Made by a program: the position numbers and the translations under genes. A DNA stretch of 64,000 bases, from positions 1,316,909 through 1,380,908 of the forward strand of contig NZ_LR732817.1 in assembly GCF_902506195.1 (NCBI RefSeq), in the 5' to 3' direction. Shown here one piece after another: positions 6,047 to 11,176 of the stretch; position 1 is the stretch's first letter; each line of letters opens with the position of its first letter. Under the pieces are notes generated by a model. That model had not been told where the DNA came from and ran no database searches. It worked only from the letters and a program-made list of their open reading frames with translations. This DNA comes from Citricoccus sp. K5. GTDB taxonomy: Bacteria > Actinomycetota > Actinomycetes > Actinomycetales > Micrococcaceae.

Positions 6047-7315
6047 TCAGCGGCGGGTGCTGACGGTCACCGTGAACGTCCGATCGCGGGAGAGCTGCCG
6101 GGTGGGGCCCACGAGGCGCTCGAGCTCAGGCCGGTACATCAGGTGCGAGTTCCACACGCACCACAGTTCCCCGCCGGGACGCAGGACCCGTGCCGAGGCG
6201 GCCATCAGGCGCACCGCGATCCGCGTGTCCACAGTGTTGCCCGCGTGGAACGGCGGATTGAGGACGAGGAGGTCCTCGCTGGCGTCCGGGAAGGTGGACA
6301 GGGCGTCATCCCGGCGGACCTCGATCCGGTCCTGGACCCCGTTGAGTGAGGCCGTGAGCCGGGTGGACGCACACGCGTCCGCGGACTGGTCAGTGGCGAT
6401 GACGCTCACACCGTCCAACCCGTCCAATCCGTCCAAGCCATCCAGTCCGGCCAGCTGCGAGGCCAAGTACACCGCGATCGTGCCGTTGCCGCAGCCCACG
6501 TCCACGGCCCGCTTCCGTCCGGCCCACTCAAGCCCACCCCGCTGGAGGTCGGACTCCAACGACCGGAGCAGGTAGGCCGTCCCCGGATCGAGGTTCGTCC
6601 CCCCGAAGGTGGCCCCGTGGGCGGCCAGGGTGACCGGGCCCAGGCCGGGCATCTGGTGTTCGGCGGTCCGGGGGAACGGGGCGGGGCGTCCGCGCCGCGG
6701 GCCACGGGCGGTGATGACCCGGGACTTGGACCGGCCCCGGCCGGGTACCACCGAGGCGAAGTACCGCTCGAGGACGGTGTTCTGGCGCGGGGTCATGTGC
6801 TTGTCCCGGCCGCCCGCGAGGAGCAGGACGTCCTCGTGTGCGTGTTCGGCGATCAGGTGCGCCCACTGCTCCAGGGCGTCCAGGGACCGGGGCAACTGCA
6901 GCAGGATCATGCGCGCCCCGGCCGCCAGCTCGGGGCCGATTCCGTGACGGCTCAGCGGGACGGCGTCCTTCAGCGCACCGGAGTCCCGGAACGCCGCCAC
7001 ATTGGCGTCGAATGAGCGCTCCTGGGCCAGGGCGTCCTGGCCGATCCGGACGCCATGTCCCGCGGTCAGCAGGGGCAGGGTGAGAGCGCCGTGACGGTCC
7101 TCGAGGACGACGACCGGAGGGACGCCGCTGTCATCCAGCGATACGGCATCCCACCAGGCCTGCGCCGTGTCCAGCAGCAGCAGGTCCGCGGCATCGTGGG
7201 CCTGGAGGTCGGGGGACTCGGGAAAGGGCCAGCGGGAGAGGGCAGCGAAGTCGAAGCCGGTGGTCAACGCGGTCCGGTGGACCGGCGGGGTCTGGCCTCG
7301 GGGGACGGAATTCAC
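6047..7315 (-). CDS. RsmC/RlmG-like rRNA guanine-N2 methyltransferase
   Basis: A class I SAM-dependent methyltransferase of 422 residues. The SAM loop DVGCGNG is at about 272-278 and the catalytic NPPFH at about 353-357. NPPFH in the C-terminal half, after a long N-terminal pseudo-methyltransferase half, is the layout of RsmC (16S G1207) and RlmG (23S G1835). I infer rRNA modification but cannot say which site. The GTG start at 7315 overlaps the upstream gene's stop (GTGA), so the two are probably coupled. Residues 291-302 are an LDG tripeptide repeated four times, encoded by a 9-bp tandem repeat just before the second Rossmann strand. Confidence 0.85.
   Translation of the reverse strand: MNSVPRGQTPPVHRTALTTGFDFAALSRWPFPESPDLQAHDAADLLLLDTAQAWWDAVSLDDSGVPPVVVLEDRHGALTLPLLTAGHGVRIGQDALAQERSFDANVAAFRDSGALKDAVPLSRHGIGPELAAGARMILLQLPRSLDALEQWAHLIAEHAHEDVLLLAGGRDKHMTPRQNTVLERYFASVVPGRGRSKSRVITARGPRRGRPAPFPRTAEHQMPGLGPVTLAAHGATFGGTNLDPGTAYLLRSLESDLQRGGLEWAGRKRAVDVGCGNGTIAVYLASQLAGLDGLDGLDGLDGVSVIATDQSADACASTRLTASLNGVQDRIEVRRDDALSTFPDASEDLLVLNPPFHAGNTVDTRIAVRLMAASARVLRPGGELWCVWNSHLMYRPELERLVGPTRQLSRDRTFTVTVSTRR
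6411..6446. repeat. Four-copy 9-bp tandem repeat inside the methyltransferase gene
   Basis: Units CCGTCCAAC, CCGTCCAAT, CCGTCCAAG and CCATCCAGT run head to tail and encode LDG units on the minus strand. The unit is a multiple of three, so copy-number change would keep the frame. A fifth degenerate unit, CCGGCCAG, may follow. Confidence 0.8.
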
Positions 7316-8025
7316 GGCAGGTCCACCCACTCGGTGCCCAGCGTGCGGAAGTGCGCCGTCCCCGCGGTGACGGACGCCAGCCGCTCGGTGAACGCGGCGC
7401 CGGACCGGCCGTCGTCGGGCAGGGCCACCACCAGCGTGGCGGATCCGGAGCCGTAGCGCGTCTCCTGGACCTGGAAGCCCGCGGCGCGCAGCTCGTTCTC
7501 CCACCGTCCGGCCTCGGAGTGTGGGGCATCGACGCCGGCCAGCACCATACGCTGCCGCGTCACCGTCACGGTCTGGTCCAGGGTGGCGGAGACGGCGTCC
7601 GAATAGGCGCGGACCAGGCCTCCGGCACCGAGCTTCACCCCGCCGAAATAGCGGACGACGGCGATGCACACGTCGGACAGGTCCCTCGCCGCGTTGCCCT
7701 CGGGCCGTGACCGGGTCTCGCGCTGGGACAGGGCCTCCAGCATGGGGACGCCCGCCGTGCCGGCCGGCTCGCCGTCATCCGAGGAGCGCATGGCGGCCCG
7801 GTCCGGGCCGAGGATGAACGCGCTGCACACGTGCCTGGCCTCGTGGTGCTGCTTCCGGAGGGCCGCGATGAAGGTGCGGGCCTCGTCCTCGGTCGTGACG
7901 CGCAGGGCGTGGCCGATGAAGCGGGAGCGCCTGATCTCCAGTTCGTGAACGATCGGGGTGCTGATCGTGATCGACGGGAGCACCGCATAGCGTGATGCCC
8001 GGGACCCGGGCTGCTCCACAGACAT
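7312..8025 (-). CDS. YigZ/IMPACT family protein
   Basis: A 237-residue member of the UPF0029/IMPACT family. Typical motifs are KRSRFIGH-like RRSRFIGHALRV, RHVCSAFILG, SSDDGEPAGTAGVPML and VVRYFGGVKLGAGGLVRAY. The C-terminal half is the ferredoxin-like UPF0029 C domain. Bacterial YigZ has no settled biochemical role; eukaryotic IMPACT restrains the Gcn2 kinase. I prefer the ATG at 8025 over one at 8052 because TAGAGT sits exactly 7 bases upstream of it, the leaderless arrangement seen repeatedly in this window. Its stop overlaps the downstream methyltransferase start. Confidence 0.88.
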   Translation of the reverse strand: MSVEQPGSRASRYAVLPSITISTPIVHELEIRRSRFIGHALRVTTEDEARTFIAALRKQHHEARHVCSAFILGPDRAAMRSSDDGEPAGTAGVPMLEALSQRETRSRPEGNAARDLSDVCIAVVRYFGGVKLGAGGLVRAYSDAVSATLDQTVTVTRQRMVLAGVDAPHSEAGRWENELRAAGFQVQETRYGSGSATLVVALPDDGRSGAAFTERLASVTAGTAHFRTLGTEWVDLP

Positions 8026-8038
8026 ACCGTCCACTCTA
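8026..8038 (-). promoter_or_regulatory. Leaderless -10 of the yigZ-like gene
   Basis: On the minus strand TAGAGT (8038-8033) is followed by 7 bases and then the ATG at 8025, so transcription should begin at or next to the start codon. This decides the start-codon choice. Confidence 0.6.
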
Positions 8039-8138
8039 CTGCCGAGTACCATCCGGCCGTGATGAGGTAGTTTGTTGGCCAGCGTGAACCCGCCCCGGCA
8101 CGACCGCCGGTGACGGCTCGATCGGAGGGGGACTCCAC

Positions 8139-10517
8139 ATGCTGACCCGATTGCACAACCGACTCGGTCTGCGCACCGGCCCGGCCATCTTCTTCATCTC
8201 AGCGTTGATCATCGTCGTCTTCACCCTGGCAATGGCGATCTTCCCGGGACCGGTCCAGGGTGCCTTCGGCGTGGTCTCCACCTACCTGCGCTATGACGTC
8301 GGCTGGTTCTACACGCTCGGCACCACGCTCTTGGTGGTCTTCGCGGTGGGACTGGCACTGAGCCGCTTCGGCCGCATCAAGCTCGGCGACGACGACTCCC
8401 AACCTGAGTTCTCCGGAATGGCATGGTTCGGCATGCTCTTCGCCGCCGGCATCGGCGCCACCCTGATGTTCTGGGGCGTGGCCGAGCCGATGAACCACTA
8501 CGCCAACCCGCCGCTGTACGGCACCGAGCCCCTGTCTGACCAGGCGGCCACGCAGGCCCTCGCGATCTCCAACTTCCACTTCGGCATCCACATGTGGGCC
8601 CTGCTCGTGGTGCCTGGCCTGTGCTTCGGCTACTTCACCTACAAGCGCAAGCTGCCGCCGCGCGTGTCATCGGCCCTGCAGCCCTTGCTCGGAGACCGGA
8701 TCCACGGCCCCTGGGGCAAGCTCGTGGACATCATCTCCGTGCTGTCCACCGTCTTCGGCCTGGCGGTCTCCGTAGGCCTGGGTGCCATGCAGATCAACAG
8801 CGGCATGAACTATGTCATGGGCGTCCCCATCAGCGGCTGGCTGCAGGCGGGCATCGTCGCCATTATCACGGGCATCGCCCTGGCTTCGGCGCTGGCCGGC
8901 CTGGACAAGGGCATCAAGCGCCTGTCCTACCTGAACATCGTGCTGGCGATCGTGCTGTTGGTCTATGTGCTCATGTGGGGTGCCACCATGGACACCGTGC
9001 GCGGCATCGTCGAGTCGGCGGGGGCGTACCTGTCCCACCTGCCGGCGCTGTCCTTCTTCAACGACACCTTCGGCGGCGGTGAGTGGTCAGGCGACTGGAC
9101 CGTCTTCTACTACGCCTGGACCGTGACGTGGTCGCCCTTCGTCGGGCTGTTCATCGCCCGGATCTCCCGCGGCCGCTCGATCCGCGCCTTCGTCACCGCC
9201 TGCCTCGGCCTGCCGACGGCCTTCGTGGTCATCTGGTTCGGCATCTACGGCCTGAGCGCTTTCACCATCGACCGTGCCGAGGGGACCGCGGGTTCTCTGA
9301 CGGAGACCATCGTCACGGACGGGAACGTGGAGGCGGCACTGTTCCAGCTCCTGCAGTCCTACCCGTTGTATCTGGCCACCGCAGTCCTGGCCCTCATCGT
9401 CATCGTCATCTTCTTCGTGACGTCACTCGACTCCGGGGCCCTGGTCCTGGACTCCATGGCCTCCGGGCACGAGGACGTGGGCCCGAAACGCCAACGCGTG
9501 TTCTGGGCCGTGTCCGTGGGGCTGGTCTGCGCCGTCATCCTGGTGACCTCGGGGGAGAACGGCCTGAACGCGCTCCAGGAGGTCATCATCGTCATCGGTG
9601 CCCCGGTGATGGCGCTGTCCCTGTTCCAGGCCTGGCTGCTGCTCCAGGCCCTGCGCGAGGACGCCGGGACCACCCGGCCACTGCGCACCCGGCAGTGGAA
9701 GCAGGTGCTGCCGATCGAGGAGTACCACCGCCGAGCCCATGAGGACGAGCACGACCTTGACGAGTACGTGATGCGGCCGGAGTACGAGGTGGGCACCGAG
9801 CCCGAGTACGAGGCACTCCAGCCGAACACCTACCACCGGCAACAGGCGCTGGAGAGCCGTGGACTGTTGACGGTCGGCCTGACCGGTGGCATCGCCTCCG
9901 GGAAGTCACTCGTGGCCCGTGACCTCGCGCAGTGGGGCGCCGTGGTCATCGACGCCGACGAGCTGGCCCGCGCGGCCGTCGCCCCGGGATCCGATGCCCT
10001 CTCGGAGATCCGTGCGGTCTTCGGCCCGGAGGTCATCGCCGAGAACGGTGAACTGGACCGCCAGGCCCTGGCACAGCTCGTCTTCGGCAACACGGTGGCC
10101 CGGGAGAGACTCAATGACATCGTCCACCCGCGGGTCCGGCAACAGATCCAGCGGATCGCCCGCGAGGCCGGCCCGGAGGCGGTGGTGGTCGTCGACCTGC
10201 CCCTGCTGGTGGAGACGGCGTCTGCGGGTGAGTTCGACGTGGTGCTCACCGTGGAGACCACTGCGGAGGCGAGGGTCAACCGGCTCGTGCATGAGCGGGG
10301 GATGTCCATGCAGGAGGCCTGGGCGCGGGTGGACGCCCAGGCCACGGACGCCGAGCGAAGAGACGTCGCCCACGAGGTCATCGTCAACGACGCGAGCCTG
10401 AACGACCTGTCCGAGGCCACGCGGCGCTTCTGGGACGACTACGTGCAGCCGGCCCTCGACGAGCACCGCGCCACCACCGCCGCGGGCAGCGCCACTCCTG
10501 AGAGCGGAGCCCAGTGA
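8139..10517 (+). CDS. BCCT osmolyte transporter fused to a dephospho-CoA kinase domain
   Basis: A single 792-residue frame joining two unrelated families. Residues 1 to about 510 are a BCCT secondary transporter (betaine/carnitine/choline class) with about 12 hydrophobic segments and signatures such as LMFWGVAEP (109-117), LSTVFGLAVSVGLGAMQIN and WSPFVGLFIARISRGRSIR. An acidic linker spans about 520-575. Residues about 577-770 are a complete CoaE domain: P-loop [11 protein letters not shown] (580-590), DADELARAAV, HPRVR and LPLLVE. BCCT termini face the cytoplasm, so the kinase would be cytosolic, in the place of the osmosensing tail of BetP. GGAGGGG 8 bases before the ATG is an excellent ribosome site. 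The stop overlaps a second coaE by GTGA. A TTG at 9867 could allow internal initiation of the kinase part. I know of no described protein with this pairing. Confidence 0.85.
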   Translation: MLTRLHNRLGLRTGPAIFFISALIIVVFTLAMAIFPGPVQGAFGVVSTYLRYDVGWFYTLGTTLLVVFAVGLALSRFGRIKLGDDDSQPEFSGMAWFGMLFAAGIGATLMFWGVAEPMNHYANPPLYGTEPLSDQAATQALAISNFHFGIHMWALLVVPGLCFGYFTYKRKLPPRVSSALQPLLGDRIHGPWGKLVDIISVLSTVFGLAVSVGLGAMQINSGMNYVMGVPISGWLQAGIVAIITGIALASALAGLDKGIKRLSYLNIVLAIVLLVYVLMWGATMDTVRGIVESAGAYLSHLPALSFFNDTFGGGEWSGDWTVFYYAWTVTWSPFVGLFIARISRGRSIRAFVTACLGLPTAFVVIWFGIYGLSAFTIDRAEGTAGSLTETIVTDGNVEAALFQLLQSYPLYLATAVLALIVIVIFFVTSLDSGALVLDSMASGHEDVGPKRQRVFWAVSVGLVCAVILVTSGENGLNALQEVIIVIGAPVMALSLFQAWLLLQALREDAGTTRPLRTRQWKQVLPIEEYHRRAHEDEHDLDEYVMRPEYEVGTEPEYEALQPNTYHRQQALESRGLLTVGLTGGIASGKSLVARDLAQWGAVVIDADELARAAVAPGSDALSEIRAVFGPEVIAENGELDRQALAQLVFGNTVARERLNDIVHPRVRQQIQRIAREAGPEAVVVVDLPLLVETASAGEFDVVLTVETTAEARVNRLVHERGMSMQEAWARVDAQATDAERRDVAHEVIVNDASLNDLSEATRRFWDDYVQPALDEHRATTAAGSATPESGAQ

Positions 10518-11176
10518 ACAACGTGAACGAGACGGAAGACGGCATGGTCAGGCCCCGGCTGCACATCGGGCTGACGGGCGGCATCGCCAGCGGCAAGTCC
10601 ACGGTTGCCGCGGAGCTGTCCGCCCTCGGTGCCATCGTGGTGGACGCGGACGCCCTCTCCCGGGCCGTCGTGGAGCCCGGCAGTGAAGGGCTGGGCCGCG
10701 TGCGTGAGGCCCTCGGCCCCACCGCGATCGCTGCGGACGGATCCATGGACCGCGCCGCCGTCGGGAAGCTGGTGTTCGCCGATCCAGAGGCCAGGGCGCT
10801 GCTGAACGGGATCATCCACCCCCTGGTGCGCGCCGAGGGTCGGAGACTCGTCATGGAGGCCGGTCCGGACGCCGTCGTGGTCCAGGACGTGCCGCTGCTG
10901 GTGGAGTCCGGGCAGGCGGGCACCTACGACCTCGTGCTGGTCGTGGAGGCGGACCCCGAGGAGCGGGTGGTGCGGATGGTCCGGGACCGGGGGATGACGG
11001 AGGATGACGCGCGGGCCCGGATCGCTGCCCAGGCCACGGACGAGCAGCGCCGCGCCGCAGCGGACGTGCTCATCGTCAACGACGCCGGCCTGGAGGACCT
11101 GCGCCGCGCCACGCGCCGAGTATGGGACGAGTACGTGGAACCGGTGCTCGGCGGGGACCAGATCCGCCGGCGGTGA
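10514..11176 (+). CDS. coaE: Dephospho-CoA kinase
   Basis: Phosphorylates dephospho-CoA on the ribose 3'-hydroxyl, the last step of coenzyme A synthesis, in the cytosol. At 220 residues it has the P-loop [36 protein letters not shown] and the lid segment [20 protein letters not shown]. It starts with GTG overlapping the stop of the fusion gene, with GGAG upstream. It aligns without obvious gaps to the CoaE domain of the preceding fusion at roughly half identity by eye. This copy sits directly before uvrB, the usual actinobacterial place for coaE (rpsA-coaE-uvrB), so it is probably the housekeeping enzyme. Confidence 0.95.

Follow-up and report, generated by a model that had tools for sequence, protein, structure and literature searches.

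A BCCT-type transporter and a dephospho-CoA kinase (CoaE) domain are joined in one open reading frame of Citricoccus sp. K5, within a 64,000-nucleotide stretch of DNA that we analysed and refer to as the window. The proposed product is a single polypeptide in which a BCCT-type osmolyte carrier, followed by its own regulatory-type tail, would end in an extension with the CoaE fold. The fused CoaE domain is under purifying selection, and the trait selected across the family would be a cytoplasmic module of the carrier, not CoA synthesis.

The initial annotation described one uninterrupted frame of 792 residues, and both its coordinates and its length prove exact (Table 1). The frame opens with ATG at 8139, behind an SD-like GGAGGGGG at 8124-8131, and reaches its stop codon at 10515-10517 with no in-frame stop between. 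Pfam and NCBIfam profiles support both domains. The PF02028 match (cut-off 27 bits) covers positions 1-485 of the 485 in the profile, and the protein passes the NCBIfam BCCT cut-off TIGR00842 (489.9 vs 407.55). PF01121 scores 182-186.5 bits against a cut-off of 27, with the profile nearly fully covered, and the NCBIfam CoaE cut-offs are also passed (PRK03333, 226.5 vs 215; TIGR00152, 142.4 vs 65.55).

Table 1. Features of the fused gene and its neighbours, in window positions
Feature	Position	Strand	Remarks
Fused BCCT-CoaE gene	8139..10517	+	792 aa, stop codon included
BCCT carrier domain, residues 17-508	8187..9662	+	Pfam PF02028, 554 bits
Native BCCT C-terminal tail (linker), residues 509-570	9663..9848	+	Motif common to unfused BCCTs of Rothia and Kocuria
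CoaE domain, residues 578-755	9870..10403	+	Pfam PF01121; 6n39 CoaE, 138 bits
P-loop, residues 583-590	9885..9908	+	K589 = Mtb Lys14
DxD motif	9951..9959	+	D605 and D607 = Mtb Asp30 and Asp32
Dephospho-CoA cleft DLPLL	10194..10208	+	P688 and L689 = Mtb Pro113 and Leu114
Fused-lineage mark in lid helix	10320..10334	+	W728 and D732
Ordinary standalone coaE	10514..11176	+	220 aa from GTG; ATG 10544 is a possible start
yigZ-like gene	7312..8052	-	Divergent upstream neighbour; conserved-locus marker

When the same junction was sought in related genomes, it was found open and the fusion conserved: the fused frame is present in 34 distinct genomes, those of the window and the MAG G417 included, and is broken in an additional one (G335). 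An assembly or frame artefact at 8139-10517 is therefore rejected, these genomes having been assembled separately. Taken together, an error joining two genes and the production of two proteins from one reading frame have a very small chance of being correct. Two products would be in keeping with what 6 of 37 fused rows of the alignment have close to the junction, a start codon with an SD-like stretch: the window (TTG 9867), L080 and four from Kocuria (L093, L094, L103 and L105). The other 31 rows, including L079 (97% identical), have no such internal start, and a separate CoaE product, which from TTG 9867 would be about 22 kDa, is therefore not a conserved feature.

Matches spanning BCCT into CoaE, with at least 59% identity, occur in 28 of 395 genomes in a scan of the family (own genome included), one of which (G127, locus L105) ends early near the lid through a frame break. 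Scans of the order and the phylum returned 7 of 396 genomes (own and G020 included) and 2 of 396 (own included, E <= 1e-200), respectively; the latter threshold detects relatives of the window protein, not independent BCCT-CoaE fusions, and at this threshold the phylum scan did not find the fusion to be common elsewhere. Within the genus of the window, seven of eight genomes carry the fusion, and G007 is without the gene at this locus. We infer that the fusion genera are Citricoccus (g1), Micrococcus (g14), Kocuria (g5, in part) and Dermacoccus (g63), plus g82; nine loci were dropped because their species were already represented among the genome-scan loci. Two Kocuria genomes have frame breaks in the fused gene, in the lid region (L105) and at the junction (L106, a fragmentary MAG). 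Outside these genera, a MAG labelled as a gammaproteobacterium has a BCCT-CoaE gene flanked by accA and dnaE on a contig of 42.9 kb (L034:6001-8352). In the family of that MAG the gene occurs in 1 of 198 genomes; either inter-phylum transfer or a chimeric contig could account for it.

Directly after the fused gene lies the standalone coaE, which starts inside the stop codon of the fused gene, overlapping it by 4 nt (GTGA), and precedes uvrB; the fused domain therefore comes on top of a normal CoaE. The fused domain and 10514-11176 are the only two places matched by PF01121 in the 3.88 Mb genome. A separate CoaE was likewise found by PF01121 scan in 33 of 33 other fusion genomes, although in the three genomes of g82 it is known only as a Pfam match of 159-163 bits. 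The fused domain as the sole CoaE of the cell is thus rejected for the window and these 33 genomes. The MAG G417 (2.0 Mb) is the single fusion genome without a separate CoaE, and the P-loop lysine of its fused domain is replaced by Arg; a coaE was likely missed there, given that the MAG is only 2.0 Mb. The standalone coaE at 10514-11176 had been missed by the initial annotation.

BLAST of the window proteins places the fused gene in a usual order of rpsA, (rsmC), yigZ, BCCT-CoaE, coaE and uvrB, where we take the neighbours to be the genes so named. A methyltransferase-like frame at 6047-7669 of the window (- strand) has a translation with a short GLD repeat (GLDGLDGLDGLDG). In two Micrococcus genomes (L087 and L096), two tandem fused genes with differently altered kinase domains stand before the standalone coaE. 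In Rothia an unfused BCCT gene comes after coaE, and in two Kocuria genomes (L107 and L108) the order is an unfused BCCT gene, yigZ, coaE and a further BCCT gene. Relatives with separate genes, named beforehand as a finding that would speak against the fusion, do therefore exist in Rothia and some Kocuria, but their arrangement differs and the nearest relatives of the window are fused. G008 has an incomplete, unfused BCCT frame that sits between yigZ and coaE (L163:4268-5585) and is 59-67% identical to the window carrier; it may be either a remnant or a separate arrival. The fused gene of g82 lies away from coaE. Upstream of it (L129:451-2037) is a cassette-recombinase-like serine recombinase, for which CcrB is the best NCBIfam match, below cut-off, and an amidohydrolase gene directly follows it.

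Phylogenies of both partners bear on how the fusion arose. A single branch separates all fused CoaE rows from the others (33 rows, support 99/98), and does so again in a larger tree with 38 fused and 25 outgroup rows (SH-aLRT 98), six further loci having been left out of the outgroup set. The fused rows and the standalone CoaE of Citricoccus (8) and Micrococcus (11) together split from the other 51 CoaE rows at 99, and the fused copy therefore most likely came from the coaE of the Micrococcus/Citricoccus line. The standalone CoaE of Kocuria and Dermacoccus fall among these 51 rows, a placement that speaks for horizontal acquisition of the fusion by both genera, with long branches leaving some doubt. 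In a BCCT tree of 52 rows, from which L106 and L117 were excluded, the 37 fused rows are on one side (99), the nearest unfused BCCTs being those of L107, L108 and L099. The two partner trees are concordant and show a single origin of the fusion; horizontal spread appears to have followed. The joining of a BCCT gene with a coaE copy beside it took place a single time, in or near the line of Micrococcus and Citricoccus, and a separate coaE remained. From there the fused gene appears to have been passed on whole to Kocuria, Dermacoccus, the genus g82 and possibly a gammaproteobacterium, a course to which the trees and gene neighbours point short of proof. That the intact Citricoccus active site stems from gene conversion by the standalone copy is disfavoured, as the fused Citricoccus domains sit in the fused clade with W728 and D732.

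How the two domains are connected differs from the initial annotation, which saw an acidic linker and placed CoaE where the BCCT C-terminal tail should be. After the last transmembrane helix, a conserved tail (RTRQWK.VLP.EEY....RPEYE.GTEPE) is shared with the unfused BCCTs of Rothia and Kocuria, so the linker is the native BCCT tail and did not arise with the fusion. It is retained in the tail alignment, and CoaE thus follows it, replacing only the variable end beyond; a CoaE standing in for the osmosensing tail is rejected on this ground. The tail is best conserved at residues of about 516-556, linker omega is 0.023-0.041, and pLDDT in the window model falls below 50 at residues 550-569.

Catalytic capacity was followed through eight residues of Mtb CoaE (Lys14, Asp30, Asp32, Arg36, Arg66, Pro113, Leu114 and Arg140), with roles taken from passages of PMC3019153 and PMC2765170 and a constant offset of 575 in the window protein. 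All eight are present in the window copy, and the intact P-loop, Asp (DxD) and lid motifs first claimed for it are seen in the alignment. Across the lineage, 4 of 37 fused rows keep the full set, the window row being one of them, vs 45 of 45 standalone rows, the 46th standalone row being L106, a frame-broken fused copy. At least one of the eight is missing in the remaining 33 fused rows, and at least one of the four tested by mutagenesis in Mtb (Lys14, Asp32, Leu114 and Arg140) in 24; 13 keep all four. Lys14 is replaced in 13 rows, Asp32 in 9 and Leu114 in 14, the losses differing between fused lineages; the P-loop lysine is Ala or Thr in the three g82 rows. Arg140 and the P-loop glycines are kept in 37 of 37. 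Kinase activity has likely been lost in the altered fused rows, judging by these replacements, but this is not firm because some positions tolerate substitution: passages of PMC3019153 describe this to some degree for Lys14, Asp32 and Leu114, and Pro113 is Ala in mammalian enzymes according to part of PMC2765170. The fused lineage has marks of its own, W728 (36 of 36 rows), D732 (35 of 36) and P771, in a count that omits the frame-broken L105. The commonest letters in the 46 standalone rows are R (27), E (7), Q (5) and L (4) at 728, and A (33), D (6) and R (5) at 732.

These data bear on whether the domain is a working dephospho-CoA kinase tethered to the membrane, for which the carrier would serve as an anchor or osmotic input, making CoA locally, with decay in relatives coming later. 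The complete residue set of the window domain, its PF01121 score of 186.5 bits against 190.7 for the standalone copy, the conserved pocket of the Citricoccus fused domains and the 13 rows with all four tested residues agree with this picture. We nevertheless regard it as unlikely: every complete fusion genome scanned has a separate CoaE, and strong constraint persists regardless of the residue losses in 33 of 37 rows. The same separate CoaE (own genome and 33 of 33 others) and the same losses weaken the coupling of osmolyte flux to CoA synthesis that had been suggested.

Constraint was estimated with codon models (iqtree) in Citricoccus (6 genomes), Micrococcus (8) and Kocuria (7). Omega for the fused domain, standalone CoaE, BCCT and linker, respectively, is 0.063, 0.041, 0.030 and 0.041 in Citricoccus; 0.045, 0.030, 0.047 and 0.033 in Micrococcus; and 0.044, 0.067, 0.029 and 0.023 in Kocuria. 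The fused domain thus has a higher omega than the standalone enzyme in two of the three groups, and in Kocuria it is under tighter constraint than the true enzyme (0.044 vs 0.067). NG86 medians for Citricoccus, Micrococcus and Kocuria are 0.239, 0.452 and 0.217 (fused) and 0.185, 0.260 and 0.289 (standalone), lying above the codon-model values because dS is near saturation; by both measures the fused domain is under constraint. Some relaxation of the fused domain is likely, most of all in Micrococcus, given the higher omega in two groups and the much higher NG86 medians. A neutral passenger created by a lost stop codon would explain such relaxation (NG86 dN/dS of 0.45 in Micrococcus), the truncated L105, the frame-broken L106 and the missing gene of G007. 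It is disfavoured and highly improbable in view of an open fusion in 34 genomes, omega of 0.044-0.063, the fused-lineage marks and a confident CoaE fold that persists after loss of catalytic residues.

Pocket identity was compared with the rest of the domain using 5000 shuffles per group. In fused domains, a significant excess is found in Citricoccus (0.933 vs 0.767, reached by 9/5000 shuffles), none in Kocuria (0.734 vs 0.745, 2840/5000), and that in Micrococcus/Dermacoccus is not significant (0.670 vs 0.603, 783/5000); the pocket of g82 is likewise not significantly more conserved than the rest. The corresponding standalone values are 0.951 vs 0.876 (354/5000) for Citricoccus, 1.000 vs 0.751 (0/5000) for Kocuria and 0.871 vs 0.668 (1/5000) for Micrococcus/Dermacoccus. 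This pattern is relevant to a ligand sensor, in which the domain would bind ATP, CTP, CoA or dephospho-CoA and gate the carrier without catalysis. In favour of it, dephospho-CoA and CTP control Mtb CoaE through a balance between dormant trimer and active monomer, as related in part of PMC3123319, and BetP is a homotrimer whose three regulatory C-terminal domains change partners upon activation, according to a section of PMC10710835. The P-loop glycines and Arg140 are also kept in all 37 fused rows. A sensor of this kind is decidedly unlikely, with the pocket not preferentially conserved in Kocuria, nor significantly so in Micrococcus/Dermacoccus, and with the P-loop lysine changed to Ala or Thr in the three g82 rows.

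Selection that persists where catalysis has probably gone suggests that the domain serves the carrier. The reading we favour, at even odds, is exaptation of CoaE into a cytoplasmic module of a trimeric carrier, any catalysis in Citricoccus being a remnant or a bonus. Attached by the native tail, the module would cap the trimer, either through protein contacts or as an allosteric element, and aid assembly or gating. Points against exaptation are the 13 of 37 rows that keep the four tested residues, the signs of relaxation in the fused domain, the lost domain end in L105 and the absence of the gene from G007. In Citricoccus, window included, the pocket is intact and conserved among close kin, which makes ligand binding, and even activity, plausible; the domain there probably binds ATP and dephospho-CoA, and may phosphorylate the latter.

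The fusion can be set against several known systems. As in the BCCT family (PF02028, TC 2.A.15), the window protein has a full carrier domain and a cytoplasmic C-terminal tail; it differs in the CoaE domain added after the tail. Its nearest solved BCCTs by sequence and fold are TmaT (8zw8), BetT (8ybq) and BetP. Residue 328 (9120-9122) is Thr in the window protein and in 37 of 37 fused rows, at the place where TmaT, BetT and 9vbn have the second Trp of the AWW motif, so the substrate is uncertain and may differ from betaine or choline. The glycine betaine and BetT equivalog cut-offs are not reached (NF047988, 476 vs 650; NF007399, 416 vs 695). The CoaE domain resembles its family (PF01121) in being complete and, in the window copy, in keeping each of the eight functional residues of Mtb CoaE, but it is tethered to a membrane carrier, is a second copy and belongs to a lineage of its own (W728, D732), in which many relatives have lost residues. 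CoaE is also joined to another domain in mycobacterial CoaE-UPF0157 and mammalian bifunctional CoA synthase (PMC2765170; matches to 6n39 and 2f6r). Those partners are soluble and have to do with folding or CoA synthesis, whereas in the fusion CoaE is paired with a transporter. A cytoplasmic extension on an osmolyte carrier is likewise seen in BetP, ProP and OpuA (PMC10710835), whose C-terminal domains are osmosensing; none of these domains has the fold of a CoA-synthesis enzyme, as the extension of the window protein does.

A transporter with an added cytoplasmic domain is thus known, and CoaE as that domain was not met in the literature searched. No paper on a BCCT and CoaE pairing was found in the open-licence PMC literature, and within it the initial annotation, which knew of no described case, is borne out. 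It is possible, if doubtful, that a captured CoA enzyme, its catalysis lost in several lineages, became a regulatory pseudokinase domain of a trimeric transporter and spread horizontally as one gene, the intact Citricoccus domain tying the carrier to ATP/CoA state. Trimeric forms known for both partners (BetP, in part of PMC10710835; Mtb CoaE, in part of PMC3123319) offer a concrete structural idea to test. The fusions form a natural series on one transporter, from an apparently intact enzyme domain in Citricoccus to clearly altered ones in Kocuria, Micrococcus and g82, so that the steps by which an enzyme turns into an accessory domain can be traced.

The AlphaFold2 model of the window protein (mean pLDDT 80.7, linker poorly defined) has a LeuT-type carrier fold, with a TM of 0.95 by target length to TmaT (8zxk), and the best 50 Foldseek matches listed are BCCT carriers. 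A model of the altered Kocuria domain of L094 has a pLDDT of 87.1, and ranks 1-27 of its 50 listed Foldseek matches are CoaE proteins. A CoaE annotation calls for caution here, as a copy without the P-loop lysine can pass the family cut-off; L087 of Micrococcus, which has no such lysine, still does so in NCBIfam (83.9 vs 65.55).
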